From the NCBI GenBank assembly GCA_025360715.1, contig JANYBS010000216.1, forward strand, positions 1 to 63,750: DNA of 63,750 nt, written 5' to 3'. Origin of the DNA: Candidatus Eiseniibacteriota bacterium. Its GTDB lineage: Bacteria > Eisenbacteria > RBG-16-71-46. This document shows positions 468 to 35,729 of this stretch, piece after piece. Made by a program: the position numbers and the translations under genes. A model generated the notes under the pieces. The model searched no databases. It was not told the DNA's origin and saw nothing but the letters and a program-made list of their open reading frames with translations. Each line of letters starts with the position of its first letter. Positions within the stretch are counted from its first letter, which is position 1.

Positions 468-696
468 GGGCACTCCTGTCACGGTGGTGGGGTTCCCGGA
501 CCCGAATCACGATGGTAGCCCGTTCTCGCCTGACAAAGCTTGAACTTTTCACTCCGGGCTGGTCTGCAACCTCAAAGCGCCTACGCCAAGTTGCGTTAGG
601 CAGGCCCCGGCGACTCCGTTAGTGTCTTGCGACTACCTTAGTTGCGACCGTTGACCGTGATTCTCGCCGCTGGATCCCCGAGGAGTCCGAGCCCCG
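468..696. other. Divergent intergenic region
   Basis: This 229-bp space separates two divergent starts and should hold promoters for both. It is more AT-rich than its surroundings between 535 and 660. GTTAG-like words recur near 594, 619 and 638, but no convincing spaced -35/-10 pair or dyad could be fixed. Confidence 0.4.
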
Positions 697-3095: not shown

Positions 3096-3111
3096 ACGGC
3101 GCAGCGCGAGC

Positions 3112-4338
3112 TTACGTCGTGTAGTCCGCGTTGATGCTCACGTACTCGGCGGAAAAGTCGCAGGTCCACACGGTCGTCGACGCGTCGCCAAGCCCCAGGT
3201 CCAGATGGATGATCGCGGGGTCGTGCTGGAGCAGGCCCGAGGCTTTCGTCTTATCGAATGCCACCGGCAGGCCGCGGTCGAGCAACTGGATGGCATCTCC
3301 ATCGCCGAACCACAGCCGCACCTTGTCGGGCTCGATCGCCTCGCCGCTGTAGCCGGCCGCGGCGAGCACGCGGCCCCAGTTGGGATCGTTGCCGTGGATG
3401 GCGGTCTTCACCAATGGCGAGCAGGCGATCGAGTCGCCCACGCGATGCGCCTGATGTTCGCTGGCGCCGCCGGTGATGCGCAACTCCACCAGGCGCGTGG
3501 CGCCTTCGCCGTCGCGGGCGATCTGCCGGGCGAGTGACGCACACACGTCGGCGAGCGCGGCGACGAATGCCGCCTCTTCGGCAGCGCTCGCGATCGTCGC
3601 GCCGCTCGCGCCGTTGGCGAGGACCAACACCGTGTCGTTCGTGCTCATGTCGCCATCAACGCTGATGCGGTTGAAGCTGTGGCCCACGGCTGCAGTGAGC
3701 GCGCGGTCCAAGGCAGCCGCGTCGATCGCCGCATCGGTAGTGATCACGGCGAGCATGGTCGCCATGTTCGGATGGATCATGCCGGCGCCTTTGGCGAAGC
3801 CCGCGAGGCGAACGCGTCTGCCGGCCAGCGTGAACTCGGCCGAAGCCACCTTGGGTCGCGTGTCGGTGGTGGTGATCGCGCGCGTCACCGCGTGTGGCGC
3901 GGTCTGCGCGCCAGGGCCGCGCAGCGCGGTCACGCCAGCGGCGAGCCTGTCCATGTCCAGGAACACGCCGATCACGCCGGTCGAGAGCACGAGCACCTCG
4001 TCGTCGGCCGCGCCGATCGCCCGCGCGCCCAGCGCCTGCATGCGGTAGGCATCGGCCAAGCCGCGCTCGCCCGTCACGGCGTTGGCGCAGCCGGCGTTGG
4101 CGAACACGCCGCGGATGCGGCCACTGGCGACCTTGAGCGTGCGGTGGTCCACCAGCACGGGCGCCGCCTGCACGCGGTTGGTGGTGAATACGCCCGCGGC
4201 CGCACACGGCATGTCGCTCCAGACGAGTGCCAGGTCGAGTGCCCCGTTCTTCTTGAGGCCGCAGGCGGTGGCGGCGCTGTGGAAGCCTGCGGCCAGCGTG
4301 AAGCTCGCGAGCTGGTCTTCGGTGGTGATCGCGGACAT
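3112..4338 (-). CDS. argJ: Bifunctional glutamate N-acetyltransferase / amino-acid acetyltransferase
   Basis: 408 residues. ArgJ moves the acetyl group from N-acetylornithine to glutamate and can also acetylate glutamate from acetyl-CoA in arginine synthesis. The autoprocessing site is visible in PNMATML, where the family cleaves before the Thr, which becomes the nucleophile of the beta chain. GFHSAATACGLK, FTTNRVQAAPV and NDPNWGR are family signatures. The ATG at 4338 follows GAGGGAGAG; the open frame runs much further upstream but without homology. It stands alone, convergent with the urate hydroxylase gene and divergent from the FHA gene. No other arg gene is nearby. Confidence 0.95.
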   Translation of the reverse strand: MSAITTEDQLASFTLAAGFHSAATACGLKKNGALDLALVWSDMPCAAAGVFTTNRVQAAPVLVDHRTLKVASGRIRGVFANAGCANAVTGERGLADAYRMQALGARAIGAADDEVLVLSTGVIGVFLDMDRLAAGVTALRGPGAQTAPHAVTRAITTTDTRPKVASAEFTLAGRRVRLAGFAKGAGMIHPNMATMLAVITTDAAIDAAALDRALTAAVGHSFNRISVDGDMSTNDTVLVLANGASGATIASAAEEAAFVAALADVCASLARQIARDGEGATRLVELRITGGASEHQAHRVGDSIACSPLVKTAIHGNDPNWGRVLAAAGYSGEAIEPDKVRLWFGDGDAIQLLDRGLPVAFDKTKASGLLQHDPAIIHLDLGLGDASTTVWTCDFSAEYVSINADYTT

Positions 4339-4415
4339 GCGGCACTCTCCCTCGGGGTGCAATGGCTCAAAAGTGGTTTGCCGCAGTCTAAACAGCCCGC
4401 GCGAGCAGCGCCATT

Positions 4416-4426
4416 GCTGGTAGAAT
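4416..4426 (+). promoter_or_regulatory. Candidate extended -10 promoter
   Basis: TGGTAGAAT forms an extended -10 element (TGN before TAGAAT, 5 of 6 matches to consensus), 46 nt upstream of the FHA-phosphatase ATG. No good -35 hexamer is present, as expected for an extended -10 type. Sequence match only. Confidence 0.35.
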
Positions 4427-4471
4427 CTCCCACCGTTCGTCACACGCAGGCACGGACCCCCTGGAGCACGC

Positions 4472-6091
4472 ATGAATCTCCGCCTCACCGCCACGCTCAA
4501 CGGCGAGACCAAGGACTGGCTCGTCGAACTCTCGCCTTCGGGCATCGGCCGTTCCAGCAAGAACGCCATCCCGCTCGCCGATGCCACGGTGTCCAAAGAG
4601 CATGCGATGCTCATGTACTCCGATAAGCAGTGGAGCATCCGCGACCTGGGCAGCCGCAACGGCACGCGCGTGAACGGCCAGGACGCCACGCAGGCGCTGC
4701 CGCTCAAGCCGGGCGATTGGATCGAGGTCGGGCACGTGATGGTGCGTGTGGGCGACGAAGCCCCCGAGAGCGCTGAGCTGAGCAACTCTGCGGCGCTGGG
4801 CTCGAGCCTGCGGCTGCGTGTGAGCGATGTATTGCAGCGCCCGCGCAGTGGCAGTGCCGACCAGAACCGCCTGGTGAGCTTGCTCGCCGAAGCCGGGCAG
4901 CTGCTGGTGTTGCCGCGGCCGATGCGCGAGACGTGCGAGGAAGTGCTGCGCTTGGTCGAAAAGGGCCTCACCGCAAGCCGCATGGTCGTGCTGCTGCGCG
5001 ACAAGCCGGGCTCCGAGTTGGTGCAGATGGCCGCCCGCACCAAGGGCGGCAGCGTGTCGGCGCCGCTCGCGCTGTCGACCAAGATCCTCGGGCTCGTGCT
5101 GGATGAGAACACTGCTGTGATCACGAGCGACGCCACCAACGATCCGCGTTTCATGGGCCAGCAGAGCATCATCGCCGCTGCGATCCACTCGGCGATGGCG
5201 GTGCCGCTGTTCGACAACACGCAGGTGCTGGGACTGTTGTACGTGGACACCACCAACCCGATGGTGCAGTTCGGACAGGAGCAGCTGGAACTGCTTACCA
5301 TCCTCGGCAACATGGCCGCGGTGAAGATCACCAACGCGCGCTTGCTCGAGGCCGACGCCGCGCGCCAGCGCCTGGCGCAGGAACTCTCGACCGCCACGCG
5401 CATCCAGACGCAGCTGCTGCCGCCGGCTCCTGACGACATGACCGGTTGGCGCTGCCACGCGCGCATCGAGACCTGCTATGAAGTCGGCGGTGATCTGTAC
5501 GACTTCCACAAACGCGACGACGGCACGTACGTGATCCTCGTCGGCGATGTCTCGGGTAAGGGCATGGGCGCGGCGCTTTACATGAGCAGCATCCTTTCGT
5601 CGGCGCGCGTGCTCTACGACGTGTGCGACGAGCCGCTGCCGCTGATCCGCCGGCTCAACCAGATCATGCAGCGCAGTAGCGACGGCCGCAGCTTCGTGAC
5701 GATGTTCGTGGCCTATCTCGATTCCGCCACGGGCCGCTTGCGCTATGTGAACGCGGGTCACCCGGAGCCGCATCTGATCGCGGGCGAGCAGCTGCGCACG
5801 CTCGAGGCCAATGGTATCCCGGTGGGCATGATGCCGGACTTCCCGTGGTCGCAGGGCGAAATCACCATCGAGCACGGCGAGACCATGGTGCTGGTCAGCG
5901 ACGGCATCCCCGAGGCGCAGTGCGGGCCGGAGTTCTATGAATTCGAACGTCTGGCGGCGGCCGTGCGCAAGTTCGCGCCGCTCGAATCACTCGACGCCAT
6001 GGCCGACGGTCTTATCGGCGACATCGACGCCTTCGCCCAGGGCGAGCACCGCGCCGACGACGTGACGCTGGTGCTGATGCGGCGGGAGTAG
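4472..6091 (+). CDS. FHA-GAF-PP2C (RsbU/SpoIIE-type) serine/threonine phosphatase
   Basis: 539 residues in three modules. Residues 1-95 are an FHA phosphothreonine-binding domain (GIGRSSKNAI, VSKEH, SRNGTRVNG). Residues about 130-290 are a GAF domain. Residues about 325-539 are a PPM/SpoIIE phosphatase with metal-binding motifs GGDLYDF, GDVSGKGMGAAL and SDGIPEA. Such proteins usually act in partner-switching control of sigma factors or secretion by dephosphorylating an anti-anti-sigma protein. No STAS or anti-sigma gene adjoins it. The FHA domain suggests input from a Ser/Thr kinase; the kinase at 15.7-18.8 kb is one candidate (inference). GGAG precedes the ATG. Confidence 0.9.
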   Translation: MNLRLTATLNGETKDWLVELSPSGIGRSSKNAIPLADATVSKEHAMLMYSDKQWSIRDLGSRNGTRVNGQDATQALPLKPGDWIEVGHVMVRVGDEAPESAELSNSAALGSSLRLRVSDVLQRPRSGSADQNRLVSLLAEAGQLLVLPRPMRETCEEVLRLVEKGLTASRMVVLLRDKPGSELVQMAARTKGGSVSAPLALSTKILGLVLDENTAVITSDATNDPRFMGQQSIIAAAIHSAMAVPLFDNTQVLGLLYVDTTNPMVQFGQEQLELLTILGNMAAVKITNARLLEADAARQRLAQELSTATRIQTQLLPPAPDDMTGWRCHARIETCYEVGGDLYDFHKRDDGTYVILVGDVSGKGMGAALYMSSILSSARVLYDVCDEPLPLIRRLNQIMQRSSDGRSFVTMFVAYLDSATGRLRYVNAGHPEPHLIAGEQLRTLEANGIPVGMMPDFPWSQGEITIEHGETMVLVSDGIPEAQCGPEFYEFERLAAAVRKFAPLESLDAMADGLIGDIDAFAQGEHRADDVTLVLMRRE

Positions 6092-6142
6092 GGCGGCCGC
6101 GCGCCCGGCGCGGGGGCGCACTCGAAGTGATACGATGATGAC

Positions 6143-6328
6143 ATGAGCCCGAAGCCCGTTCCTGGCCCGCGCGATCGTGATCCTGTCGTGGATGCATATC
6201 GACAGCATGTGGATGTCGGGCTGCTTCGTGACAATCTCCGGCTGACCCCTGAACAGCGCGTGCAGCGATTGCAGGATGCCCTGCGCACGATCGAGGCCCT
6301 GCGACAGGCCCGCCGACAGGACGGCTGA
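6143..6328 (+). CDS. Small helical protein paired with a nucleotidyltransferase
   Basis: 61 residues, charged and mostly helical, with DPVVDAYRQHVD, LLRDNLRLTPEQR and EALRQARR. Similar short proteins occur directly upstream of nucleotidyltransferase-fold proteins in many bacteria. It ends 2 nt before the next start, a two-gene layout like that of toxin-antitoxin modules. No DNA-binding motif is apparent. The Shine-Dalgarno sequence is weak. Function unknown; antitoxin-like partner is inference. Confidence 0.7.
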   Translation: MSPKPVPGPRDRDPVVDAYRQHVDVGLLRDNLRLTPEQRVQRLQDALRTIEALRQARRQDG

Positions 6329-6330
6329 GC

Positions 6331-6810
6331 TTGGACTTCGAACGCCTGCTTGGAGCGCTCTCCGACGCGGGAGTCGAATACATCCTTGTCGAAGGGTTCG
6401 CTGCAACGCTTCACGGCTCAGCCCGCGTCACCTTCGATCTCGATGTGGTGTATTCGCGCGACACTGCGAATATCGCGCGCCTTGAGGTCGCACTGAAACC
6501 GCTGGAGCCCTACCTGCGTGGCGCGCCACCGGGTCTTCCGTTCCGCTGGGACGCCGTGACGATCCGCCGCGGACTGAACTTCACGCTCACCACCACGCTC
6601 GGCCCCCTGGATCTGTTCGGCGAGATCTCCGGCGGAGGCACATACGAGAGTCTTTCGGCCGACGCCGAGACGCTGCTGCTCTTCGGGCGGGAGGTCCGGG
6701 TGCTCTCTCTCGTACGCCTGATCGCGGCGAAACGAGCTGCCGGGCGGCCAAAGGACCTTGAAGTCATCGCCGAGCTTGAAGCCCTGCTCGATGAGCCGGG
6801 CGAGGCCTGA
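6331..6810 (+). CDS. Nucleotidyltransferase-fold protein (MNT/AbiEii-like)
   Basis: 159 residues starting at TTG, 2 nt after the preceding stop. The core EGFAATLHGSARVTFDLDVVY matches the solitary nucleotidyltransferase pattern, with the DLD acidic pair and a preceding small-residue/His-Gly motif. A C-terminal helix (LVRLIAAKRAAGRPKDLEV) matches the usual end of this group, where KRAAGRPKD precedes a short helical tail. Such proteins may be toxins that modify tRNA or partner proteins, or inactive homologues. ACAGG upstream and the tight spacing support the TTG start. Confidence 0.75.
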   Translation: MDFERLLGALSDAGVEYILVEGFAATLHGSARVTFDLDVVYSRDTANIARLEVALKPLEPYLRGAPPGLPFRWDAVTIRRGLNFTLTTTLGPLDLFGEISGGGTYESLSADAETLLLFGREVRVLSLVRLIAAKRAAGRPKDLEVIAELEALLDEPGEA

Positions 6811-6972
6811 GCCGGCCTCTCAGCCCCCGCGCCCTGCGCGGGTCCCGGCGGACTTGCCCAAGCGCTGCAGGGTGCGGCATCATGATCGGCCGCAGCTGCC
6901 GTCGGGATGGCCTCGTGAGGCACGCGTCCCGCCTCGTCTGACGCCACCGGAACACTCTCAAGGAGTCCCATC

Positions 6973-7530
6973 GTGATCGCCGCGACCCAACTTCGTGTCG
7001 GCAACCTGATTCTTTACAACGGCAAGCCGCATCGCGTCGCGACCATGGTGCACCGTACGCCGGGCAACCTGCGCGGCTTCGTGCAGGCCAAGCTCGTGAA
7101 CATCGACAACGGTTCGAATCAGGAAGTGCGCTTCAGCTCGGAAGACAAGGTCGAGAAGGCGACGCTCGATGAGCACAAGCTGCAGTTCAGCTACAAGGCG
7201 GGCGATGAGTTCCACTTCATGAACACGGACTCGTACGAGATGATCGCGCTCGCCCGCGACGTGCTGGGCGACAGCGCTGGCTTCCTGATCGACGGCATGC
7301 TCATCACCGCGAACTATTGGGGCGGCAAGGTCGTCGGCATCGAGACGCCTATGTTCGTGGAACTCGTGGTCACCGACACCACGCCCAACATCAAGGGCGC
7401 GGCGGTGCAGAACACGAGCAAGCCGGCGACGATGGAAACCGGCATCGAGATCAAGGTGCCGCCCTACATCGAAGTCGGCAACAAGGTCAAGATCGATACG
7501 CGCACGGGCGAGTTCGTCGAGCGCGTGTGA
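6973..7530 (+). CDS. efp: Translation elongation factor P
   Basis: 185 residues from a GTG start preceded by AAGGAG. EF-P binds between the P and E sites and relieves stalling at polyproline. All three beta-barrel domains are visible: N-terminal KOW-like, a middle domain with HFMNTDSYEM, and an OB domain ending TGEFVERV. The tip loop reads TPGNLRGF. Where E. coli has the modified Lys34 in PGKG, this protein has Asn, with Arg two residues later. The lysyl or rhamnosyl chemistry known from other branches is therefore not expected at that position. The next gene's GTG overlaps its TGA. Confidence 0.95.
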   Translation: MIAATQLRVGNLILYNGKPHRVATMVHRTPGNLRGFVQAKLVNIDNGSNQEVRFSSEDKVEKATLDEHKLQFSYKAGDEFHFMNTDSYEMIALARDVLGDSAGFLIDGMLITANYWGGKVVGIETPMFVELVVTDTTPNIKGAAVQNTSKPATMETGIEIKVPPYIEVGNKVKIDTRTGEFVERV

Positions 7531-8225
7531 GCCACGACCGCGCGCGATTCCGCAGCATCGCGGCGCTGCTCGATTTCATGGCTGGCGAGGAAGCCCTCGC
7601 CAGCCTTCTGCTTGAGGCGCGCGCGCGCGACGGCGCCGCGCCCGATCCCACGCACGACGTGGCGCACGCGCTACGCGTGGCGCTGTGGACGATTCGTCTG
7701 GGCGGCGACGAAGTAGATGAGCGCGAGGCCATCGCTGCGGCGTTGCTTCACGACGCGGTGAACCCGCCCAAGGACTCGCCCGAACGCGCGCATGCGAGCG
7801 AGCGCTCTTCGGAGCTGGCCGGTCGGAGGCTGCCGGCGTGCGATTTCGCACCCGAGGCGGTGACGCGCATCGCCGCCGCGATCCGCGACCACAGTTTCTC
7901 GCGCGGCGCCGTGCCGGCCACACCATTGGGCCGCGCGCTCCAGGATGCCGACCGGCTCGAGGCCCTGGGCGCTATCGGGCTGCTTCGCTGCGTGTCGACC
8001 GGCGTGCGCATGGGCGGGGAGTGGTTCGATGGCGAAGATCCGTTCGCCGAGCACCGCGCGCTCGACGACAAGCGCTACTCGGTGGACCACTTCTACACCA
8101 AGTTGCTCTTGCTCGCGGGTACGATGTGCACCGAGGCCGGGCGTGCGGAAGCCGAGCGCCGCACGGCGTTCCTGAACACGTTCTTGACGCAGCTCGGCGA
8201 CGAACTCGGGCGTGGACGCCGTTAG
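7527..8225 (+). CDS. HD-domain phosphohydrolase (YedJ-like)
   Basis: 232 residues from a GTG that overlaps the efp stop; an ATG at 7578 is an alternative start. HD residues are visible: His in DPTHDVAHALRV, the HD pair in AALLHDAVNPP, His in IRDHSFSRG and Asp in LQDADRLEALGA. Metal-dependent HD enzymes of this type hydrolyse phosphate esters or nucleotides. IRDHSFSRG and DADRLEALGAIG are characteristic of the YedJ/uncharacterised HD family. Substrate unknown. The overlap puts it in an operon with efp. Confidence 0.85.
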   Translation: MSHDRARFRSIAALLDFMAGEEALASLLLEARARDGAAPDPTHDVAHALRVALWTIRLGGDEVDEREAIAAALLHDAVNPPKDSPERAHASERSSELAGRRLPACDFAPEAVTRIAAAIRDHSFSRGAVPATPLGRALQDADRLEALGAIGLLRCVSTGVRMGGEWFDGEDPFAEHRALDDKRYSVDHFYTKLLLLAGTMCTEAGRAEAERRTAFLNTFLTQLGDELGRGRR

Positions 8226-8231
8226 CGCGAA

Positions 8232-8567
8232 GTGACAGACTCCGCGTCCGTCATGTTCGACTCCATCCGCATCCGCTCGTTGCCGCGCACGTTCGCGGCC
8301 CTCGCGATGCTCGCCGCGCTGCTGCTGGGCTCGGTGGGCCACGCGTGGCACCACTATGTGGATCGCGATTGCGACACACGCACGGGCGCATCGGCAGGTC
8401 CGTGCGGCGTCTGCGCCGGCATGCATGCAGCGCAGGTGCAGGGCGATCTGCAGGCCGCGCGCATCCCCGCGCCGGTGCTGATGAGCACGGTCGTCTACGC
8501 GCGAGCAAAGACGCCGGAGGCCGCGGAGGCTCGCAAGGCCGGAGCGCGGGCCCCGCCGCAGGCGTGA
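8232..8567 (+). CDS. Small Cys/His-containing membrane or exported protein
   Basis: 111 residues from GTG, or 104 from an ATG at 8253. One N-terminal hydrophobic segment (FAALAMLAALLLGSVGHA) is either an anchor or a signal peptide. It is followed by HAWHH, a Cys at DRDCD, and PCGVC followed by MH. This is a compact potential metal-binding cluster. Short DUF2946-like proteins of this form are often found beside metal-uptake genes. It sits just upstream of an outer-membrane barrel and a Zn/Mn ABC system, so a metal-handling role is plausible but inferred. Confidence 0.6.
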   Translation: MTDSASVMFDSIRIRSLPRTFAALAMLAALLLGSVGHAWHHYVDRDCDTRTGASAGPCGVCAGMHAAQVQGDLQAARIPAPVLMSTVVYARAKTPEAAEARKAGARAPPQA

Positions 8568-8698
8568 CATAGGCGCGGCGCACGCTTCCTCGCGCGCCGC
8601 CGCGCACACCGCCCCCGGACCCGTTGCACACAGCACGCTTGGCGCCCTCGCGCCCGCGCGCACTGTTGGACCATTCCCCGGCCTCCCGGAGGACATCC

Positions 8699-9820
8699 AT
8701 GCGTCATCGCATGCTGCTTGCGAGCGTCGCCGTATTCGGCGCACTGCTTTCACTTCAAACCGCGCCCGCTTGCGCGGGCGTGGTGAACCCCGACATATCT
8801 CTCATTGGCCAACCCATCGTGCGTTGGACCGACGATCCATCTGATGCGCGCGCCTACCGCCAGTTGGGTTTCGACGTGGGCGAGACCGAGATCGTGTTCG
8901 ACTCGGCGTTGAATCCCTACGCGCGCGGCTATGCCACGCTGTCGCTGGCGAGCGGCAAGGCCGACGTGGAAGAGGCCTACTTCACCATCCTGCGCGGCCT
9001 GCCCGCCGGGCTCGAGGTGACGGGCGGTAAGTACCGCGTGGGCTTTGGCAAGCTCAACGCGGCGCATCCGCACACGTACCCGTTCATCGAGCGCTTCCAC
9101 GTGCTCGCCAAGTTCCTGCCGGGCGATGATTCGTACGATGAGACGGGCGTGAACGTGAGTGGCCGCATCCCGGTGCCGGGCGACATCGCACTCACGGCGT
9201 CGGCCGACATCCTGCAGGGCGATAGCTTCGAGAGCCCCGGCGACAGTGTGGGCAGAAGCACCGCCCGGACGAAGGCGCACAACGCCTATGTGGGCCGGCT
9301 CTCCGCGTTCATCCCGATCGGCGACCGGTCCGGGCTGGAGTTGGGCGCATCGGGCACGCAGGGTGTGAACGACATCTACTCGGGCGCCAAGACCACGGTG
9401 TTCGGCGGCGATGCCAAGCTCAAGGTGTACGTGAGCGACAACGCCAGCTTGCTGATCCAGGCGGAGTACCTGCACGAGGACCGCGAGGTCACCGAAGACA
9501 CGCCGATCTTCGGGCATTGGAAGCCCAGCGGCGGCTATGCGTTCGTGAACTACAGCTGGGCGCAGCGCTACAACGTGGGAGCGTCGTTCGAGTCCAGCAG
9601 CTCCACCACCAGCGGCTGGACGAGTGACAAGTCGGTCGGCGTCTTCGCCGGCCTCGCGCTCATGGAAGAGACCACGTGGTTCCGGCTGGGATTCGAGCAC
9701 ACGACGCCGAGCACCGGCAGCATCGCATTCGAATCGGCGTCGTCGTCGCAGCCGACCATCAATACCGTCCGCCTTGGCATCGTCTATTCCATGGGGCCGC
9801 ACAAGGCCCATCAGTTCTAG
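8699..9820 (+). CDS. Outer-membrane beta-barrel protein linked to metal uptake
   Basis: 373 residues from an ATG at 8699 preceded by GGAGGA. A signal peptide ends near TAPACAG. The rest alternates polar and hydrophobic residues, with many Tyr/Phe/Trp near strand ends. YRVGFGKLN followed by HPHTYPF resembles an outer-membrane protein group found beside zinc ABC genes. It ends 10 nt before the metal-binding protein. No TonB box or plug domain is visible, so it is more porin-like than TonB-dependent. Passage of the metal or a chelate across the outer membrane is inferred from context. Confidence 0.75.
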   Translation: MRHRMLLASVAVFGALLSLQTAPACAGVVNPDISLIGQPIVRWTDDPSDARAYRQLGFDVGETEIVFDSALNPYARGYATLSLASGKADVEEAYFTILRGLPAGLEVTGGKYRVGFGKLNAAHPHTYPFIERFHVLAKFLPGDDSYDETGVNVSGRIPVPGDIALTASADILQGDSFESPGDSVGRSTARTKAHNAYVGRLSAFIPIGDRSGLELGASGTQGVNDIYSGAKTTVFGGDAKLKVYVSDNASLLIQAEYLHEDREVTEDTPIFGHWKPSGGYAFVNYSWAQRYNVGASFESSSSTTSGWTSDKSVGVFAGLALMEETTWFRLGFEHTTPSTGSIAFESASSSQPTINTVRLGIVYSMGPHKAHQF

Positions 9821-9830
9821 GAGGTAGCAC

Positions 9831-10715
9831 GTGAAGAACCGTATCGCATTGTTCTCAGTGGCGGCGTTGCTTCTGACGGCGGGAGTCGCCGTGGCCAAGG
9901 TCCGCGTCGCGGCGTCCACCACCGACATCGCGTCGATCGCCAGCAGCGTAGGCGGCGACGACATCGAGATCTTCGCCATCGCGCGGCCCACCAACGATCC
10001 GCATCGCGTGGAGGCGCTGCCGTCGTACATGGTCAAAGTCGCGCGCGCTCAGGTGTATCTCAAGGTCGGCCTCGGGCTCGACCAGTGGGCCGATGCGATC
10101 ATCGACGGCTCGCGCAATTCGCACATCGAAGTAGTGGATTGCTCGCGCGGAGTGAAGGTGTTGGAAAAGCCCACGGGCAAGGTCGACGCATCGATGGGCG
10201 ACGTGCATCCCGACGGCAATCCGCACTATTGGCTCGACCCGCGCAATGCCGGCGCCACCGCGCGCGACATCGCCGACGGCCTGGCCAAGGCCGATGCCGC
10301 CAATGCCGCCAAGTACCACGCGCGGGCTGAAGCATTCGCAAAAGAAGCCGACGCGGCGTTCGAGAAGGGCGTCGCCACGGTGAAGCCGCTCGCGTCGCAC
10401 GCGATCTACACCTATCACAAGTCGTGGAGCTATCTGGCCGACGCGTTCGGGCTCGACGTGGTCGCGACGGTCGAGCCCGTGCCCGGCATCCCGCCCACGG
10501 CGCGGCACTTGGCCGAGTTGGTCGATACGGCCAAGGCGCGCAAGGTCGGGGTGCTCATTCAAGAGCCCTATTTCTCGGCGGACGCCGGCAAGTTCCTGAA
10601 CCGCTCGGCGGCGATGCGCGTGGTCACGATCTCGTCATCGTGCGACGGCCCCGAAGCGGGCAGCTACCTGACGCATGTGCAGGCGGTGCTCGCGGCGCTC
10701 GTGGGAGGGAAGTGA
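9831..10715 (+). CDS. Periplasmic Zn/Mn-binding protein of an ABC transporter (ZnuA-like)
   Basis: 294 residues from GTG with GAGG upstream. A signal peptide (LLLTAGVAVA) has no lipobox, so the mature protein should be soluble in the periplasm. Cluster A-I features are present: VRVAASTTDIASIA, metal-ligand His in NDPHRVE, His in DVHPDGNPHYWLDP, a further His in TYHKSW, and a late acidic residue in EPYFSADAGK. These fit three His plus one acid around Zn or Mn. It lacks the long His-rich loop of classical ZnuA. Its TGA overlaps the permease ATG (TGATG). Confidence 0.9.
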   Translation: MKNRIALFSVAALLLTAGVAVAKVRVAASTTDIASIASSVGGDDIEIFAIARPTNDPHRVEALPSYMVKVARAQVYLKVGLGLDQWADAIIDGSRNSHIEVVDCSRGVKVLEKPTGKVDASMGDVHPDGNPHYWLDPRNAGATARDIADGLAKADAANAAKYHARAEAFAKEADAAFEKGVATVKPLASHAIYTYHKSWSYLADAFGLDVVATVEPVPGIPPTARHLAELVDTAKARKVGVLIQEPYFSADAGKFLNRSAAMRVVTISSSCDGPEAGSYLTHVQAVLAALVGGK

Positions 10716-26991: not shown

Positions 26992-27177
26992 GGGGAGACA
27001 GTGTAAGCGCGACTCGCCCGCATTGCCAATGGAGAACTTTCGCGGGTTCTCGGAAGGCCAGACAGGCGCCGGGGGAGAAGGCACTGGTTCCGCGGGTGCG
27101 CTAATGTCCACGCATCGTCCGCTTGGCCGCGGCCTGTCACTCATCAAGATGCCGGGAACCCGGCAGGAGTTCGTGCT

Positions 27178-28266
27178 TTGTCGCTCTCTCACTATGTATC
27201 CCTCGGCCGCTCCGGCCTGCGTGTGAGCCCTTACTGCCTGGGCACGATGACTTTCGGGGATGACTGGGGCTGGGGTTCCAGCGTCGAGGAGTCCGAGGCC
27301 GTGCTCGAGCGCTATCTGGCTCTTGGCGGCAATTTCGTCGATACCGCGAACGGCTATACGAAGGGCCATTCCGAAGTGATCCTGGGCGATTGGTTCGCGC
27401 GGCATCCCGGCAAGCGCGACCGCCTGACGCTCGCGACCAAATTCGTCGCGACACTGTATCCCAACGACCCCAACGGCGGCGGCGCGGGCCGCAAGGCGAT
27501 CCACGACCAGTTGCATCATTCGCTCAAGCGCCTCAAGACCGACTACATCGACTTGTACTGGATGCACGTGTGGGACCGCTTCACGCCCATTGAAGAAACG
27601 CTGCAGACGCTCGACGATCTCGTGCGCGCCGGCAAGATCCGCTACATCGGTTTCTCGGACACGCCCGCGTGGATGGTGGCCAAGGCGCAGACGCTCGCGA
27701 CGCTGCGCGCGTGGACGCCACTGATCGCGCTGCAGATCGAGTACTCGCTGCTGCAGCGCACGGTCGAAGGCGAGCTCGTGCCCGCGGCGCTCGATGCCGG
27801 TGTGGGCATCACGCCGTGGGGCGCGCTGGCGTCGGGTGCGCTGAGCGGCAAGTACACGCGCGCGAATCACGGCACGCTGCAGGCCGGCCGCGGCCCGTGG
27901 ACCATGGACCGGCTGACCGACAAGAACTATGACCTGATCGACGCGCTGATCGCGATCGGCAGAGTGCACAACGCCACACCCGCGCAGGTCGCGCTCGCGT
28001 GGCTGCAGGGCAAGCCCGGCGTGGCCAGCATCATCGTCGGCGCGCGCACCGTGCGGCAGCTGGAAGACAACCTGGGCGCCGCGACGCTCAAGCTCACCGA
28101 CGCGGACCGCGTCAAGCTCGAAGACCTTACCCGCGTCCCGCACGCGTTCCCGTACGACTTCTGCGCCAACTTCGGCGGCTTCGCGTACGGCAGCACGAAC
28201 GTGCAAGGCGAGCAGTTCGAACGCCGCCCGTACGCGCCACAGAAGGATGGCGATCTGTACGAGTAG
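27178..28266 (+). CDS. Aldo/keto reductase
   Basis: 362 residues from a TTG with AGGAG 7 nt upstream. It has the (beta/alpha)8 aldo-keto reductase pattern: GTMTFGDDWGWG, NFVDTANGY with the catalytic Asp and Tyr, LATKF with the Lys, and MHVWD with the His. IIVGARTVRQLEDNLGA near 280-300 is the NADP-binding C-terminal signature. It resembles the YhdN/Tas-like general oxidoreductases. Physiological substrate unknown. No operon partner is obvious; the next gene follows after 18 nt and may be co-transcribed. Confidence 0.9.
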   Translation: MSLSHYVSLGRSGLRVSPYCLGTMTFGDDWGWGSSVEESEAVLERYLALGGNFVDTANGYTKGHSEVILGDWFARHPGKRDRLTLATKFVATLYPNDPNGGGAGRKAIHDQLHHSLKRLKTDYIDLYWMHVWDRFTPIEETLQTLDDLVRAGKIRYIGFSDTPAWMVAKAQTLATLRAWTPLIALQIEYSLLQRTVEGELVPAALDAGVGITPWGALASGALSGKYTRANHGTLQAGRGPWTMDRLTDKNYDLIDALIAIGRVHNATPAQVALAWLQGKPGVASIIVGARTVRQLEDNLGAATLKLTDADRVKLEDLTRVPHAFPYDFCANFGGFAYGSTNVQGEQFERRPYAPQKDGDLYE

Positions 28267-28284
28267 GAGTGGCGAGGCACCGGC

Positions 28285-29940
28285 ATGAGGCTTCCCGTGA
28301 ACGCGAAAGGTCCAAGCACCCGCACGAGAGGGGTGCTCGCCGGCTTGGCCTTGGCGGGGAGCGCCCTCGTGCAGGTCCCCACGATGACGCGCATGTTCGC
28401 GCCCGATGATTTCATCATTCTCGAGCAAGTGACGGGCGTACACCCCATACCGATGACATTGTGGCGCCTGCTCTCTGGGCGGGTGTTCTTCGGGTTGATG
28501 TTCACCGCGTTCGGGACGATGGCGCTTCCTTATCACGTCACCGTGCTCCTGGCCCACCTCGTGAATGTCGTGCTCATCATCCTGCTCGCTCGAAGGCTTC
28601 GATGCAGCTTCGTGGCCGGCGTGCTGGCTGCGACGCTGTTCGGAGGCAGCGCACTTTGGTCTTCGGTCCTGCTGCAGGCGACGGGCATCGGCGAAGTTCT
28701 GGCGGCCACCTTCTCGCTTGCCGCGCTGCTGGTGCTCCTGAGCAGGCGGCGCACGCTCAGCCTGCTCAGCGTCCCACTATTCGTGTGCGCGGTCCTGTGC
28801 AAGGAGATCGCTGTCGTCCTCCCCGTGCTGGTGCTCCTGATCCCTCACCGGTCGACGTGGACGGCCGATCAGCGCCGCGCAACGGGCGCGCTGGTTCTGG
28901 CTTCGCTCGGGCTCGCGGGGGCGCTTGCTTGGCAGTGGGGGGGCGTGCCCAGCCTGCACGGGGAGGCTTATCGACTCGAGATCGGTGCGATCCCCGCGGG
29001 GCTGGTGTGGTACTTGGCCCGGCTCTTCGATCTGCAGGATCCGAGCCCCGATCTTGCGCTGCCACCTGGGCTCTTCGGCTCCGGGCTCCTCATTCTGGGA
29101 GCATCGATCGGAGCGCTTCTGCTGGCGCTTCGCAGGGAGAATGTGCGATCCGTCACCGCGATCGGATCCGTCGCGGCCGCGCTGCTCCTGCTCCCGGCTC
29201 TGCCGCTTGTCCACCATCGTTATGTCGCCTACCTGTACTCGCCTTGCGCGGCCTTGGCTCTTGCGGCTGCTTCGCTCGTGGCTCCACGCGAAGGTCGCAG
29301 TGGTGCCATGCCGACCCGCTCGACCCTCCGCGGAGCGAACACTTGGACTTTGGCGGCGACCGCCTCCGTCCTCTTCGTACTCGTGGCGTCTTCAGGCACG
29401 GTCTCAAGACGCATGACCGAGGCGTTGCCGGGGTATGCCCTCCCAAGTGATCCGTTGGTGCGCAAGATGGTGGTCGCTGACGCGGCCTTGCGACCGCTCC
29501 TCTCGAGACTTCCGGACACACTGAGCGAACTCGTCGTGTTCTCTCCTCACGAGACCGGCCACCTGATGGGCGTCCGCTCGGGCGGCACGACTCGGCACGC
29601 GGGGGGCCATGCACCGAATCTGACCACGGCCGTGCTCGATTCGGGAGCCGCGATCCGGGTCTATCGACCCGCCCTTCGGCGCGTGGAATGGATCTCAGAG
29701 TGGCGTCCGCAGTTCGCTTCGCAGCCGATCGCGCTACAGGAGGGGCTTGAACTTCGATATCAAGGCATCGGGCCGTCCGCTCACATGGCGACCGCGCGAT
29801 CGTTCCTGGCACGCGGCCTGCCGTGCTTGGCCGCGGACTACCTGAGAGCGGTCCAGGCCTCCGCAGATTCGAACCCGGCCCTTCGCGACATCTCCCTGAG
29901 CGCCGCCCGACGATGCCAAGAGCGGAGCGCCTCCAAGTAG
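28285..29940 (+). CDS. Polytopic membrane protein, GT-C-like
   Basis: 551 residues. About ten membrane helices occupy residues 15-365, then a soluble C-terminal part of about 180 residues follows. Near residue 35 an APDDFIILEQ loop follows the first helix, resembling the acidic loop of GT-C glycosyltransferases. GEVLAATFSLAALLVLL and LCKEIAVVLPVLVLL match repeated helices in tetratricopeptide-linked membrane proteins of the same fold. No family is firmly recognised. The C-terminal LARGLPCLAADYLRAVQASADSNPALRD looks like a single TPR hairpin. It may be a glycosyltransferase for surface glycans or a protein O-mannosyltransferase relative. Confidence 0.6.
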   Translation: MRLPVNAKGPSTRTRGVLAGLALAGSALVQVPTMTRMFAPDDFIILEQVTGVHPIPMTLWRLLSGRVFFGLMFTAFGTMALPYHVTVLLAHLVNVVLIILLARRLRCSFVAGVLAATLFGGSALWSSVLLQATGIGEVLAATFSLAALLVLLSRRRTLSLLSVPLFVCAVLCKEIAVVLPVLVLLIPHRSTWTADQRRATGALVLASLGLAGALAWQWGGVPSLHGEAYRLEIGAIPAGLVWYLARLFDLQDPSPDLALPPGLFGSGLLILGASIGALLLALRRENVRSVTAIGSVAAALLLLPALPLVHHRYVAYLYSPCAALALAAASLVAPREGRSGAMPTRSTLRGANTWTLAATASVLFVLVASSGTVSRRMTEALPGYALPSDPLVRKMVVADAALRPLLSRLPDTLSELVVFSPHETGHLMGVRSGGTTRHAGGHAPNLTTAVLDSGAAIRVYRPALRRVEWISEWRPQFASQPIALQEGLELRYQGIGPSAHMATARSFLARGLPCLAADYLRAVQASADSNPALRDISLSAARRCQERSASK

Positions 29941-29982
29941 CACCCGCCGAGGCTGCTCCGCGTCTTCCGCTGCCGCGGCGCC

Positions 29983-32598
29983 CTACGCCGCCGCGGCCTT
30001 CGTGTTCGGGGCGTTCGTGTTGTCCTGCACGAACGCCTTGAGCATGCCCAGATCCACCATCGGGTCCTGCAGGATCGGGTCCTGCATCACGCGCAGGAAG
30101 TCCTCGTAGAGCGGATGGTCCTCGTGGAAGACCGCGCGCTTGGCGAACTCCTCTTGCGTGAAGGTGTCCCAGTTGATCAGGCGCTGGAACATCACGTCGT
30201 TGGCGCCGACTTCTTTGGCCAGACACACGAACGCGGGCATCTCGCGGTAGTTGTCCACCTGCACCACGAAGCGCAGGGCGAAGCACTCCAGCTCGCCGCG
30301 GTCCACGAGCGTTTTCATATAGTGAAGGTTGGGGATCACTTTCTCGATATGACCGGGGCGGCGCACGATGCGATAGACCTCTTCGGTCGCGGCGTCCAGC
30401 GACACAGCCAGGCTCTTGGTGCGCTCTTTCAGTTTGGGGAACTGCTCCCACACCTCGGGCGTGAGCAACTGACCGTTCGTGAGCAGGTGATATTTGAGTC
30501 TGGGGTAGTCCATCTCGCCCAGTTGCTGCAGCAGGCGGCGGAACGTTCGCGAGGCGAACGGGTCGCCCGAGCCGGTGACGGTCACCAGCTCGCAGTCCTT
30601 GAGCAACGGCATCACGACACGGTCAGTCATCGCGTCGATCTTGATGCGATCGGCGTCGTTGCTCATGATCGTGTGCGTGCGGCACGACGGGCACGCGAGG
30701 TTGCAGCTCTTGTCGTACGACAGATTCACCGTCGCCGGCGCGTAGGGCAGGACGGTCATGTGCTTCTCGACCACTTCCTGCCAGCGCGGGTCCGTGATCT
30801 GCACGAACGGCTGCAGGTCGGCGTTCTGGATCACCGGGCACGAGATCTTGTTACACCAGCGGTAGCTGCCGTCCAGGATGCTCGCACGCATGTCCTGCGC
30901 GGTGGGCGAGTTCCACACGTCTTCCCACTTGGCGGCGTCGTAGACGTTGCCGATGGCGTCGGGCATCCACACCGCGCAGCACATGTGCGCGGGGCCGTCC
31001 GGCAGTAGCTCGATATTCTCGAACGGCTTGGCGCAGAAGCGGCCCTTGAGCTGATAGCGCGGGTCGTCGGGATGCTGCCGGGCGTGCACCGCGAACAGTG
31101 CGTTCGCCACGATCACGCTGCGCGAGTGATACGTGAGGCCCTCTTCCAGAAGGTTCGCGGCGCTGGTCAGCTCGCCGCGCGTGGCGCGCACCAGGCCGAG
31201 TGCTGCCCACGCACCGGGCGTGCGCTGCGCCGCGGGCGTGGCCTCGAGCGCGGCATCCACACACGCGGCGATGCGCGGGTGGCGCGAGAGCGCGTGCAGG
31301 AAACTCGCCATCGCCGGGTCGTCGGGATGTGTCTGCACGAGCACCTGCTCGATCACGTCGGGCAACTGCGCGTCGCCCACCATGTCGGGCGGGCAGCTGG
31401 CGAGCACGTTCTGCAGCAGCTCGCGCGCAGGCGCGATCTTGCCCAGGCGCAGCAGGGCGGTCGCGTGCATACGCGTGGCGTCGGCGCTGTCGGGGTGGTG
31501 AGCGATCACCTCGGTGGTCACCGCGAGGGCTTCTTCATATTGCCCGGCCTGCGTGAGCATATCCGTGAGGACGGTCGCGAGTGATTCATACGTGAGCTCG
31601 AAATCGAGTGCGTCGAACGAAGTGCCGAAATGGTTGAACAGGAACAGCAGCACCTCGAATGCCTGCGGCGCATTCTCCTGCAGCATGGCCTCGCGCGCCT
31701 GGTCGAGCTTGGTGCGCACCCACGCCAGCGTGCGCTCGCGAGCTTCGGGCGATTCGTTCGCGTCGTAGGCTGGCAGCTCGATCGCATAGTTGAGCAGCCC
31801 TGCCACCGGCGAGGCCGCGAGCAGCTGCTGCACGTCGATCACGTCAGCGAAGTGCAGCGCCGGGCGCTCGCCCTGGCCGTCCACGCCGATCCACGCAAAG
31901 GCCGCCTCGGTGTGCGCGGCGGTACCCGCAGCGCTGCGCGCCGAGAGCAACTGCCCATCCCACGCGCTCTCCGCGTGCAGGCCCACCGTGTGCGCGGGTG
32001 CCTCGAACCACGCGGCCAACGAAGGCGCGAACTCCAGGCCCAGGAAGTCGCACACACGGCGCAGCGTCTCGTCGGTCTGCGCGGCCAGATCGTCGAAGCG
32101 CACATTCAGCACCGGGGTCCCGGAGGCGAACGCGCCCTGCAGCAGCGCGGCGTTCTGGTCGTGCCAGAGCTCGGCGCACGTGGTGGCGGATTCGCCCGTC
32201 ATGGCGCCCTGTGCGCGCACCGCCAGCAGCGGATCGCTCGTGCACATGATGACATGCGTGGGCCGGCCGTTCGCGGCCTCATCATTGATGCGCGCGGCGA
32301 GCCAGCGCGGGGTCTTGGAGGCATCCAAGATGACGTCGCACGCGGTTGCGCGCGCAAGCGCGTCGTACACGCCCGCGGGCCCTTTCGCGCAGGCGGCCGC
32401 CACAGCGGGATGCTCCCACACGGCGCAGGCGTGGCCCGCGCTGTCGCATGTGCCACACGCGGAGTGCATGCCGCGTGCGCCCAGCACGTGCGCGACATCG
32501 CCGGCATTGAACACGACCGGATGGGCGCCGAGCATCTGGCTGAGCAGCGTCGCACCCGAGAACGGCGTGCCGACCACGAACACGTTGCTGCGCTTCAT
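29983..32598 (-). CDS. Sulfotransferase - TPR - SPASM - radical SAM fusion protein
   Basis: 871 residues from an ATG at 32598 with GGAGG upstream. Residues 1-270 look like a PAPS-type sulfotransferase: 5'-loop VVGTPFSGATLL, a CGTC...C cluster at 48-57, and VRFDDLAAQTDETLRRVCDFLGLEF as the 3'-phosphate region. TPR-like helices follow (about 300-515). A SPASM-like Fe-S region has CAKPFENI (C522), CC at 540-541 and two further Cys at 582 and 587. A radical SAM core has CNLACPSC (C632, C636, C639), a VTGSGDP motif and LLTNGQLL. In most such enzymes SPASM follows the core; here it precedes it. Target unknown. Possibly a two-step modification of a peptide, protein or surface polymer (inference). 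Confidence 0.8.
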   Translation of the reverse strand: MKRSNVFVVGTPFSGATLLSQMLGAHPVVFNAGDVAHVLGARGMHSACGTCDSAGHACAVWEHPAVAAACAKGPAGVYDALARATACDVILDASKTPRWLAARINDEAANGRPTHVIMCTSDPLLAVRAQGAMTGESATTCAELWHDQNAALLQGAFASGTPVLNVRFDDLAAQTDETLRRVCDFLGLEFAPSLAAWFEAPAHTVGLHAESAWDGQLLSARSAAGTAAHTEAAFAWIGVDGQGERPALHFADVIDVQQLLAASPVAGLLNYAIELPAYDANESPEARERTLAWVRTKLDQAREAMLQENAPQAFEVLLFLFNHFGTSFDALDFELTYESLATVLTDMLTQAGQYEEALAVTTEVIAHHPDSADATRMHATALLRLGKIAPARELLQNVLASCPPDMVGDAQLPDVIEQVLVQTHPDDPAMASFLHALSRHPRIAACVDAALEATPAAQRTPGAWAALGLVRATRGELTSAANLLEEGLTYHSRSVIVANALFAVHARQHPDDPRYQLKGRFCAKPFENIELLPDGPAHMCCAVWMPDAIGNVYDAAKWEDVWNSPTAQDMRASILDGSYRWCNKISCPVIQNADLQPFVQITDPRWQEVVEKHMTVLPYAPATVNLSYDKSCNLACPSCRTHTIMSNDADRIKIDAMTDRVVMPLLKDCELVTVTGSGDPFASRTFRRLLQQLGEMDYPRLKYHLLTNGQLLTPEVWEQFPKLKERTKSLAVSLDAATEEVYRIVRRPGHIEKVIPNLHYMKTLVDRGELECFALRFVVQVDNYREMPAFVCLAKEVGANDVMFQRLINWDTFTQEEFAKRAVFHEDHPLYEDFLRVMQDPILQDPMVDLGMLKAFVQDNTNAPNTKAAAA

Positions 32599-33011
32599 GC
32601 GGTGAGTCCTCCATGACCCGGACCGTGTCCGTGGGCGGCCTGCGGTCACAGGCGTCGTCCGGGACTTCGGGCACTGACCCATTCGCAAGAACGCAAGAAC
32701 CGCGCCCGCCGCGCACTCGCGCGCTCGCAGGCATTTACGCGCGGCACACGCAGGGTTCGCCGCGCCGCCCGGCACCGAGCGCGGCAGGAATCGCCGCCCT
32801 GCGGCAACGCGGGTGACATCGCGAGCGCAAGCGCCGCGCACCTCGCGCATGCGCTCGCACCCGCGCCGGCCGGGGCTCGCTCGCGCCTCACGCGCGTCGC
32901 AGCCGCGTCGGCAGCGGCCCGCAAGCGCACCCGGCTTGCGCGGCGGGCCGCTGTAGGCCATATTCACCGCCCCTTATAGAGCGCTCACGACTTCTCCGTC
33001 CTCGAGAGGCC
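32599..33011. other. Divergent intergenic region
   Basis: 413 bp, very GC-rich, between the radical SAM fusion and greA. No frame has family resemblance. On the plus strand TTGCGC (32936) and CATATT (32959) have a 17-bp spacing and could be a weak promoter for greA; TTATAG at 32974 is an alternative -10. CCTCGAGAGG lies just before the greA start. Confidence 0.35.
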
Positions 33012-35729
33012 ATGCCAGTCCGCGACGCCTTGCCTGCAGTCCTTCGTGGTGAACTCGGCGCCGATCTGTCGCCCGAGTCTCGCGCGAGCCTTGAGACTCT
33101 GGCGCACGATGCGCAGACCGAGAAGAAGCTCAACTCGGTGCGCGATGAACTCGGTGGCCGCCTCAAGCAAGCCGACGCCCCGTGGGGTGTGTACTACCTG
33201 CTCGCGGCGGTCTGTGCGCTCAACGGCGAGGTCGAGCGCGCGCAGCAGACGCTGCTCGCAGTGGGCGAGAAGGTCGCCGCCAAGAAGAAGTGGGAGCCAC
33301 TCGCGGCCATCGCCGAGCGCTCGCTCGGCCTCATGAGCACGCAGGCCGCCGCGCGGCTGCTGGTGCAGGCACACGAGGGCCTGGGCAAGGACCCTGACCG
33401 CATCGACGCGCTCTCGCGCGCGTGGGCGATCGTGCCCGACGACCTGGAGCTGGCGCTGCTGCTGGCCAAGCGCCTGGGCGATGCCAAGCAGGACGACGAC
33501 CGCCGCGCATTGCTGGCGGAACTGGCCCCGCGCTTCGCCGAAGAAGCCCGCTACAAGGACTTGGATACGGCGTCTCTCGAGTTCGTCGACGCCGACGATT
33601 ACGACGGCTTGGTGCAGGTCGGCGCGACACTGCCGGTCATCGCGACCGCCGGCGCGCTCAAAGAAGCCAAGAACCTCGCCGAGATCATCGCCCAGGGTCT
33701 TACCAAAGGCGCCCGTGCCGGCGAAGTGCTCGACGCGCTGCGCAGGACGATCGAGATCGCCGGCGGCGCCAAGGGCGAAGAAGCCGCGGAGCCGTTCCGC
33801 GAGGCCATCACCGCGGCGCTCAAGCAGGGTCCCGGCCGCACGGTGCCCGACGTGGACTCGGCAGCGGTGCAGAGCGGCCTCGAGGACACCGATACGCCGC
33901 TGGCAAAGGCCATCGAGCAGTTCGACGCGATCGCGGCGCTCGCGCCCGGCCGCGGCGTGCTGCATGACGGCTTCGGCCCGGGCCGCATCGTGTCGAACGA
34001 TACCGAGACCGTGGTGATCGACTTCGCCAAGGGTAAGGGTCACAAGATGCCGTACGCGGCCGCGCGCCGCACGCTCTCGCCCGTGGCCGAAGACGATCTG
34101 CGGTTGCTGCGCTTCACCGACCCCGCCGAAGTGAAGCGGCTCATGAGCGACGAGCAGGCGACGATGGTGATCGGCGCGCTCAAGGTGCTGGGTGGCCAGG
34201 CCGATGCGGCGCGGCTCAAGGTGTTCTTGATCGGCGCCGACCTGGTGCCCGCCAAGGACTGGACGGTGTTCTGGCGCAAGGCGCGGCAGGCGTGCGAGAA
34301 GGACATGCGCATCGACCACTCGCGCGCGTTCGAACAGCACTACAAGCTGGCGCCCGAGGGCCAGACGACCAAGGCCGCCGCCGACCACGCGCCGCTGCCG
34401 CCATTCGAAGTGCGCAAACCGGCGCGCTACAACCTGGGCGTGATCAAGAAGTTCCTCGCGCAGCACCCGCAGCTCGAAGAGCCGCTCAAGGGCCGTTTTG
34501 GCCGCTTCATCCAGCGGACTATGCTCGAGGATGAAGGCGAGCGTCAGGATCGTGCGCGCGGTGGGCTGTACTTCGCGCGCTGGTATCCCGAGCGCCGCGC
34601 CGAGTGGATCCACACGCTGCGCCAGCTCTGGCAGCAGGGCCTGTCGATCTCGGACCTTGCCACCGAAGACGAGCAGATGCAGTTGCTCGCGGACTCGCGC
34701 GAAGCCGGCGTGGAGGCCGAGGCCATCCTCTCGGCGCTCGATTCGCGTTTTGCCGCAGTGCGCGAAGTGGCCGAGAAGGATCGCGCGGGCCTCAACGACG
34801 CCGGCCGCATGCAGCTGCGCCGCGCGTTGGTGGATCATGCCGTGCAGTACTCGGCGGCGCTCATGCGCCTGATCGAGGACGAGTTCCGCGCCGAGCCGCC
34901 GCCCGCCGATGCGTGGCGCATGTTCGTGGCAGCGCTGCAGCTGATCGAGGACAAGCCCAAGCCGTCGACCGGCGAGAAGATCCTGCGCTGGCTCGAAGAT
35001 GGCGGCGAGTTCGAACGCCTGCTCGCCAAGGTCGAGATCGGCGGCGAACTGCGGCTCAAGATCCGCGTGTTGCTGCGGCAGTGGCGATCGAGCGACCGCT
35101 ACCTGTTCCCGGCTCTCGACGCCGTGGCGCGTGTGGGCCTGGCCGACGAGAAGCAGTGGGTGCTCGACCATCGCCAGCGCCAGACCGACAAGCTGTTCAG
35201 CCAGGTGGGTGAACAAGCGGAAGATTTCGACATCCCGGTCATGACGCACGCGACGTACGAAAAGCTCAAGGCCGAGATGGAAGCCATGGAGCGCGAACTG
35301 CGCACCACGATCCCGCAGACGATCCAGCGGGCGCGCGAGCTGGGCGATCTTAAGGAGAACGCGGAATACCACTCTGCCAAGCAGAAGCAGGCGAACATGA
35401 ATAAGATGGTCTCGTCGCTGCAGATGCGACTGGGCCGCGCCCGCTTCGTGGAAGATGCCGATTTCCGCGAGGGCATCGTCGGTTTGGGCACCGAGGTGCA
35501 GCTCACGAGCGCCACCGGCGCATCGAGCTACTGGATCCTGGGCGACGGCGAACAGCACCTGGGCGACAACGTGGTCAGCTTCCAGGCGCCGATCGGCAAG
35601 GCGCTCGTCGGCCGCACCGTCGGCGACGAAGTGGACCTGGGCGAAGGCGAGAATCGCCGCACGTATCGCGTCCAGAGTGTGGCGCGCAAGCTGCCACCGG
35701 CGAGCAAGGAATCCACCGCGTCGCAGTGA
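33012..35729 (+). CDS. greA: GreA transcript-cleavage factor with large N-terminal extension
   Basis: 905 residues; the last 162 are a full GreA (coiled coil with GDLKENAEYH at its tip, D779, E782 and E785, then the FKBP-like domain with FQAPIGKALVGRTVGDEV). GreA enters the RNA polymerase secondary channel and stimulates cleavage of backtracked RNA. E. coli GreA is 158 residues. The first 740 residues are mainly helical; near 311-358, RGVLHDGFGPGRIV and VIDFAKGKGHKMPYAA resemble the Tudor/SH3-like module of UvrD/PcrA and CarD-type proteins. Chlamydial GreA also has a long extension. Tudor-like RNA polymerase contact is inference. Confidence 0.85.
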   Translation: MPVRDALPAVLRGELGADLSPESRASLETLAHDAQTEKKLNSVRDELGGRLKQADAPWGVYYLLAAVCALNGEVERAQQTLLAVGEKVAAKKKWEPLAAIAERSLGLMSTQAAARLLVQAHEGLGKDPDRIDALSRAWAIVPDDLELALLLAKRLGDAKQDDDRRALLAELAPRFAEEARYKDLDTASLEFVDADDYDGLVQVGATLPVIATAGALKEAKNLAEIIAQGLTKGARAGEVLDALRRTIEIAGGAKGEEAAEPFREAITAALKQGPGRTVPDVDSAAVQSGLEDTDTPLAKAIEQFDAIAALAPGRGVLHDGFGPGRIVSNDTETVVIDFAKGKGHKMPYAAARRTLSPVAEDDLRLLRFTDPAEVKRLMSDEQATMVIGALKVLGGQADAARLKVFLIGADLVPAKDWTVFWRKARQACEKDMRIDHSRAFEQHYKLAPEGQTTKAAADHAPLPPFEVRKPARYNLGVIKKFLAQHPQLEEPLKGRFGRFIQRTMLEDEGERQDRARGGLYFARWYPERRAEWIHTLRQLWQQGLSISDLATEDEQMQLLADSREAGVEAEAILSALDSRFAAVREVAEKDRAGLNDAGRMQLRRALVDHAVQYSAALMRLIEDEFRAEPPPADAWRMFVAALQLIEDKPKPSTGEKILRWLEDGGEFERLLAKVEIGGELRLKIRVLLRQWRSSDRYLFPALDAVARVGLADEKQWVLDHRQRQTDKLFSQVGEQAEDFDIPVMTHATYEKLKAEMEAMERELRTTIPQTIQRARELGDLKENAEYHSAKQKQANMNKMVSSLQMRLGRARFVEDADFREGIVGLGTEVQLTSATGASSYWILGDGEQHLGDNVVSFQAPIGKALVGRTVGDEVDLGEGENRRTYRVQSVARKLPPASKESTASQ

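Follow-up and report, generated by a model that had tools for sequence, protein, structure and literature searches.

Radical SAM proteins with an auxiliary cysteine domain ahead of the core have already been described under the profile NF033640 (N_Twi_rSAM; twitch domain-containing radical SAM protein). The radical SAM enzymes BtrN, NeoN, DesII, and BlsE act on sugars or sugar nucleotides (the latter for DesII and BlsE); some of them have one auxiliary cluster, and the auxiliary domain, where present, follows the core. Sulfotransfer_3 proteins of Acetobacter, Skermanella, Sinorhizobium, and Phaeobacter have a P-loop, a Cys triad (CxxC...C..W), a D-x-SK motif, and the 3'-phosphate Arg and Ser, and cysC/cysD genes are located near some of their genes. 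In Rhodobacterales and Geminicoccaceae, proteins of about 470–510 aa combine a short TPR-like stretch with a twitch domain and a radical SAM core. The gene analyzed here is located in a window of 63,750 nucleotides (the whole stretch of DNA that was analyzed) from a Candidatus Eiseniibacteriota bacterium, and its product resembles each of these systems in part. Unlike N_Twi_rSAM proteins, it has TPR and sulfotransferase-like domains added in front; unlike the Rhodobacterales/Geminicoccaceae proteins, it has a sulfotransferase-like domain; and BtrN, NeoN, DesII, and BlsE have neither of these domains. The component parts are thus already known, whereas the four-domain architecture appears to be new. 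No paper joining radical SAM, SPASM, and sulfotransferase, or naming an N-terminal SPASM/twitch domain, was found in the literature searched.

The fusion gene is a single frame of 871 codons with no internal stops (Table 1). Pfam matches, all above the cut-offs, are ordered from the N- to the C-terminus as Sulfotransfer_3, TPR, SPASM, and Radical_SAM. The single-chain fusion proposed in a sequence-only reading of this DNA is therefore borne out by the open frame and the domain matches. The GC3 values of three parts of the gene are all high (0.883, 0.858, and 0.905), and the codon usage is host-like and resembles that of the neighboring genes; these patterns do not indicate a frame error. The same reading had allowed for the region being two adjacent genes in relatives, which was not seen, and the sulfotransferase part is missing from the relatives' flanks that were examined. 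A frame error or a pair of separate genes was rejected based on the continuous frame, the coding bias, and the lack of split neighbors in relatives. The assembly is a draft with 253 contigs and 96% completeness. The fusion gene is real and intact, and its architecture is apparently unique.

Table 1. Positions of the fusion gene, its parts, and related features (window coordinates unless a locus of a relative is named).
Feature	Position	Strand	Evidence
Accessory block: aldo/keto reductase, multi-pass membrane protein, fusion	27178..32598	.	tblastn synteny; Pfam for neighbors
Complete fusion gene, 871 aa, sulfotransferase-like / TPR / twitch (SPASM-like) / radical SAM	29983..32598	-	Open frame, translation, coding bias throughout
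Shine-Dalgarno GGAGGA, 8 nt upstream of ATG at 32598	32607..32612	-	Sequence
Sulfotransfer_3 domain, residues 6-191	32026..32583	-	Pfam PF13469, 52.8 bits vs cut-off 27
P-loop (5'-phosphosulfate loop) GTPFSGATLL, residues 10-19	32542..32571	-	Alignment with four relatives
Degenerate 3'-phosphate site CTSDPLLAVRA, residues 119-129, Arg->Ser, Ser->Ala	32212..32244	-	Alignments
TPR-type helical scaffold, residues 284-508	31075..31749	-	Pfam TPR_19 at 348-400; helices in model
Twitch/SPASM-like auxiliary cluster domain (N-terminal to core), residues 520-590	30829..31041	-	Pfam SPASM; Cys conservation count
Radical SAM core, residues 620-812; C632/C636/C639, GSGDPF, LLTNG, VSLDAA	30163..30741	-	Pfam; invariant Cys
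Caspase-like protease gene, L026	8740-10803		
Caspase-like protease gene, L032	7313-9508		
Caspase-like protease gene, L033	4631-6664		
Caspase-like protease gene, L035	4254-8450		

For the radical SAM module, the SPASM match (26.3 bits; cut-off 21.5) covers residues 522–587 and the Radical_SAM match (40.8 bits; cut-off 29.5) covers residues 632–767. The core motif C632-x3-C636-x2-C639 is thus located after the auxiliary cysteines C522, C540, C541, C582, and C587, rather than before them as in the classical order. Exactly these eight cysteines are invariant in all 22 distinct members compared, and the other three cysteines of the module vary. These results agree with the earlier description of two cysteine sets with the auxiliary one in front, and both sets are intact. 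However, the accompanying statement that no enzyme with this order had been described fails for the SPASM-before-core part, which NF033640 already describes and which is also seen in 13 bacterial relatives and on 11 viral contigs. The match of the fusion protein to NF033640 is colinear (residues 520–810 on positions 3–312 of a 398-position profile), and all nine members of the set A3 also match this profile. The score of 70.5 bits is far below the curated cut-off of 170, which places the fusion protein in a related but divergent group rather than among the members of N_Twi_rSAM. Radical SAM enzymes head the Foldseek matches of the C-terminal model; BlsE ranks first, and DesII, SkfB, and SuiB are also listed. 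Given TM-scores near 0.4, these matches say little about the substrate.

Relatives over the last approximately 350 residues were found on a Paracoccus zhejiangensis plasmid (39% identity), in eight Rhodobacterales or Geminicoccaceae genomes (37–43%; e.g., Tropicimonas and Rhodovulum), and on 11 viral contigs (30–33%). Four more bacterial relatives came from samples of 398 phylum and 385 class genomes around a Geminicoccaceae genome (the phylum being Pseudomonadota and the class presumably Alphaproteobacteria). The eight invariant cysteines are shared by 21 further members, the sources of which include Alphaproteobacteria and viral contigs; none of these members has a sulfotransferase domain, and no sulfotransferase was found beside the relatives' radical SAM genes in the flanks examined. 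The N-terminal extension of these relatives is absent (L051), short and TPR-like, or long without a Pfam match (L053). No second copy of the fusion was found in 84,980 species genomes (motif scan), in the phylum and class samples, or on the plasmids, phage records, and viral contigs searched. A check of related genomes for the same domain order, as the sequence-only reading had suggested, also gave none: the fusion gene is absent from the rest of the genus, family, and phylum among the 46 other genomes of the phylum searched. In the phylogeny, the fusion protein groups with the alphaproteobacterial sequences against the viral sequences, and the donor is not fixed because many forks are unresolved.

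The fusion gene lies in a variable slot (27030–33012) between a cobalamin adenosyltransferase gene and a GreA-like gene. The flanks of the accessory block correspond to genes that are adjacent in the sister species G003 and G004 (tblastn). The slot measures about 130–160 bp in these two genomes and about 6 kb in the source genome, and in G001 it holds about 4.4 kb of different DNA. The neighboring GreA-type gene is 71–74% identical in three congeners, indicating that the contig is from this genus and that the fusion gene is accessory. The gene was apparently acquired horizontally. It stands alone, convergent with the membrane protein gene and divergent from the GreA gene. The convergent gene (28285–29940), whose codon usage is atypical, encodes a multi-pass protein that matches neither Pfam nor NCBIfam profiles and by eye is possibly a GT-C type glycosyltransferase. 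Scans of the window found no Rfam families or tRNA genes. A co-occurring short precursor peptide gene, another check that had been proposed, is not evident near the fusion gene.

Between the sulfotransferase-like domain and the twitch domain, the TPR_19 match (32.1 bits; cut-off 25) covers residues 348–400 only, whereas the helices in the AlphaFold model are unbroken from residue 284 to 508, indicating that the TPR part is longer than the Pfam match. The last TPR-like helices ahead of the twitch domain can be aligned with the N-terminal part of the relatives, indicating that the TPR-twitch junction is ancestral. Judging from these alignments, the sulfotransferase part looks like a later addition to an older TPR-twitch unit.

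The N-terminal domain retains some of the features expected of a sulfotransferase. In an alignment with four relatives, Gly15 and Thr17 of the P-loop are retained, with Ala at position 16 instead of the family Ser, and the D-x-SK motif is also retained (Asp92, Ser94, and Lys95). However, the 3'-phosphate Arg (in RNP, RDP, or RDG) and the Ser some eight residues further on, which are present in all four aligned sulfotransferases, are replaced by Ser and Ala in the fusion protein. This site was realigned by hand without a gap that the aligner had placed there, such that CTSDPLLAVRA pairs with LSRNPFAFAYS (family motif xxRDPxxxAxS). Therefore, the sulfotransferase-like domain and the P-loop of the sequence-only reading stand, whereas its 3'-phosphate motif does not. 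A cysteine cluster that it had pointed out is likewise present, but the triad 48/51/58 is shared by all four other family sulfotransferases aligned and is thus not an extra metal site peculiar to the fusion protein. Within the plasmid collection, this domain is closest to alphaproteobacterial proteins (Acetobacter, 26% identity; Skermanella, 22–25%). No other Sulfotransfer_3 protein was found in the genus, and a profile search detected no APS kinase in the source genome (a 96% complete assembly) or four congeners. Across the genus, the top hits to APS_kinase are partial (21–26 bits over about 50 residues) and by eye are Mrp/MinD-type ATPases. In the AlphaFold model, the pLDDT of the N-terminal domain is only 25–50, since no homologs could be supplied for residues 1–270. 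Given this low confidence, phosphate binding might in principle fall to Arg128, which would then compensate for the altered site. No geometry is claimed for the protein, because the N-terminal pLDDT is below 50 and the twitch domain is poorly modeled. Nevertheless, the loss of the 3'-phosphate Arg and Ser, together with the lack of a detected APS kinase and of other Sulfotransfer_3 proteins in the genus, suggests that binding, rather than sulfate transfer, is the more probable role of this domain, and PAPS chemistry by this domain is unlikely.

For the substrate, a surface glycan or a peptide had been suggested, and the glycan option receives indirect support from the relatives. Glycosyltransferase genes are present in the neighborhoods of nine of 12 bacterial relatives (L026, L029, L032–L036, L052, and L053; a raw count without a background rate, with some calls made by eye from the start of the sequence), and none was present in the neighborhoods examined for L030, L031, and L051. 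L054 was left out of this count, as its sequence is too short to judge. The types include GT25, GT28-type, GT2, and an O-antigen-type cluster. For example, L026 has a GT25 gene and another glycosyltransferase gene nearby, L052 has a GT2 gene directly after the radical SAM gene, and L053 has an O-antigen-type cluster with an ABC exporter and nucleotide-sugar genes. Within this L053 cluster, two radical SAM genes, one with the classical and one with the inverted SPASM order, occur together (4785–9892). Caspase-like protease genes are found near the radical SAM gene at four Rhodobacterales loci (Table 1). In L051, the twitch radical SAM gene without an N-terminal domain (8480–9655) is located between apparent rpsP and rimM genes in a ribosomal operon.

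The best explanation for these patterns, to which we give an about even chance, is an acquired radical SAM enzyme that probably acts on a glycan and has a degenerate sulfotransferase-fold domain that helps hold the substrate. In such an enzyme, the core [4Fe-4S] cluster (C632, C636, and C639) would reductively cleave SAM, and the resulting 5'-deoxyadenosyl radical would abstract hydrogen from the substrate. An auxiliary cluster, with putative ligands among C522, C540, C541, C582, and C587, may pass or accept an electron, and such a relay would make oxidation or epimerization the outcome, as has precedent in BtrN- or NeoN-type sugar enzymes. The neighbors of the relatives suggest that the substrate may be a cell-surface glycan or a glycan precursor, although the solitary position of the fusion gene in the window counts against this explanation. 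The sulfotransferase-fold domain would most likely not use PAPS, and may act together with the TPRs as a substrate- or partner-binding module. In a bolder and rather doubtful version, the sulfotransferase fold would have become a reader domain for a glycan, possibly a sulfated or acidic one; the domain would dock this glycan, and the TPR arm would deliver it to the oxidizing or epimerizing radical SAM center. If true, this would be the first case of a retired sulfotransferase acting as substrate arm for a radical enzyme.

Other explanations must be weighed against the glycan-acting enzyme. That the N-terminal domain uses PAPS to sulfate the very substrate of the radical SAM domain, i.e., the coupling of two chemistries first proposed for this protein, is quite improbable: the Sulfotransfer_3 homology is genuine over the whole fold and the P-loop and D-x-SK residues are retained, but the residues for the PAPS 3'-phosphate are replaced, APS kinase was not detected in the genus, and no sulfotransferase was found next to the relatives' radical SAM genes. 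Alternatively, the protein may be a SPASM-type maturase that modifies peptides or proteins, with the TPRs and the N-terminal domain holding a protein client. Many characterized SPASM enzymes have peptide substrates, the usual ligands of TPRs are proteins, and SkfB and SuiB are among the matches of the C-terminal model. However, this possibility is rather doubtful, as no short precursor gene was found near the fusion and the relatives' neighbors are glycosyltransferases rather than peptide clusters.

Moreover, the occurrence in one genome only and the degenerate N-terminal motif may be explained by a chance fusion heading for decay, in which a useless N-terminal piece is attached to the radical SAM part and the gene does little. 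The open frame, good Shine-Dalgarno sequence, host-like codons, GC3 of 0.86–0.91 in all parts, and retention of all catalytic cysteines make such a decaying gene very unlikely. Finally, the draft state of the assembly and the lack of a second example could mean that two genes have been joined falsely, by a chimeric assembly or a frame error. This artifact is highly implausible, given that the frame and coding bias are continuous over both junctions, the TPR-twitch junction is shared with relatives, and the flanking genes are syntenic with those in sister species.

With the two-chemistry idea weakened, more interest attaches to the wider group of twitch-first radical SAM proteins. This apparently uncharacterized subfamily has eight invariant cysteines and the auxiliary cluster first; its genes come from Alphaproteobacteria as well as viral contigs and often lie beside glycosyltransferases. 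If its members modify surface sugars by radical chemistry, bacteria and their viruses would have a way of diversifying glycans that has been little explored, and the fusion points to a possible way in which the substrate is held. On the viral contigs (L067–L077), the twitch-first radical SAM genes stand alone, and some of these contigs have a T4-type DNA polymerase-like gene (by eye). L071 has up to five radical SAM/twitch-like genes side by side (403–7314) and, a few kb away, a weakly sulfotransferase-like gene (8645–9379; 17.7 bits, below the cut-off). In L072, a methyltransferase-like C-terminal part is apparently fused to the twitch radical SAM protein (4866–6962), and in L067 (4744–5703) a separate methyltransferase gene directly follows the twitch radical SAM gene.
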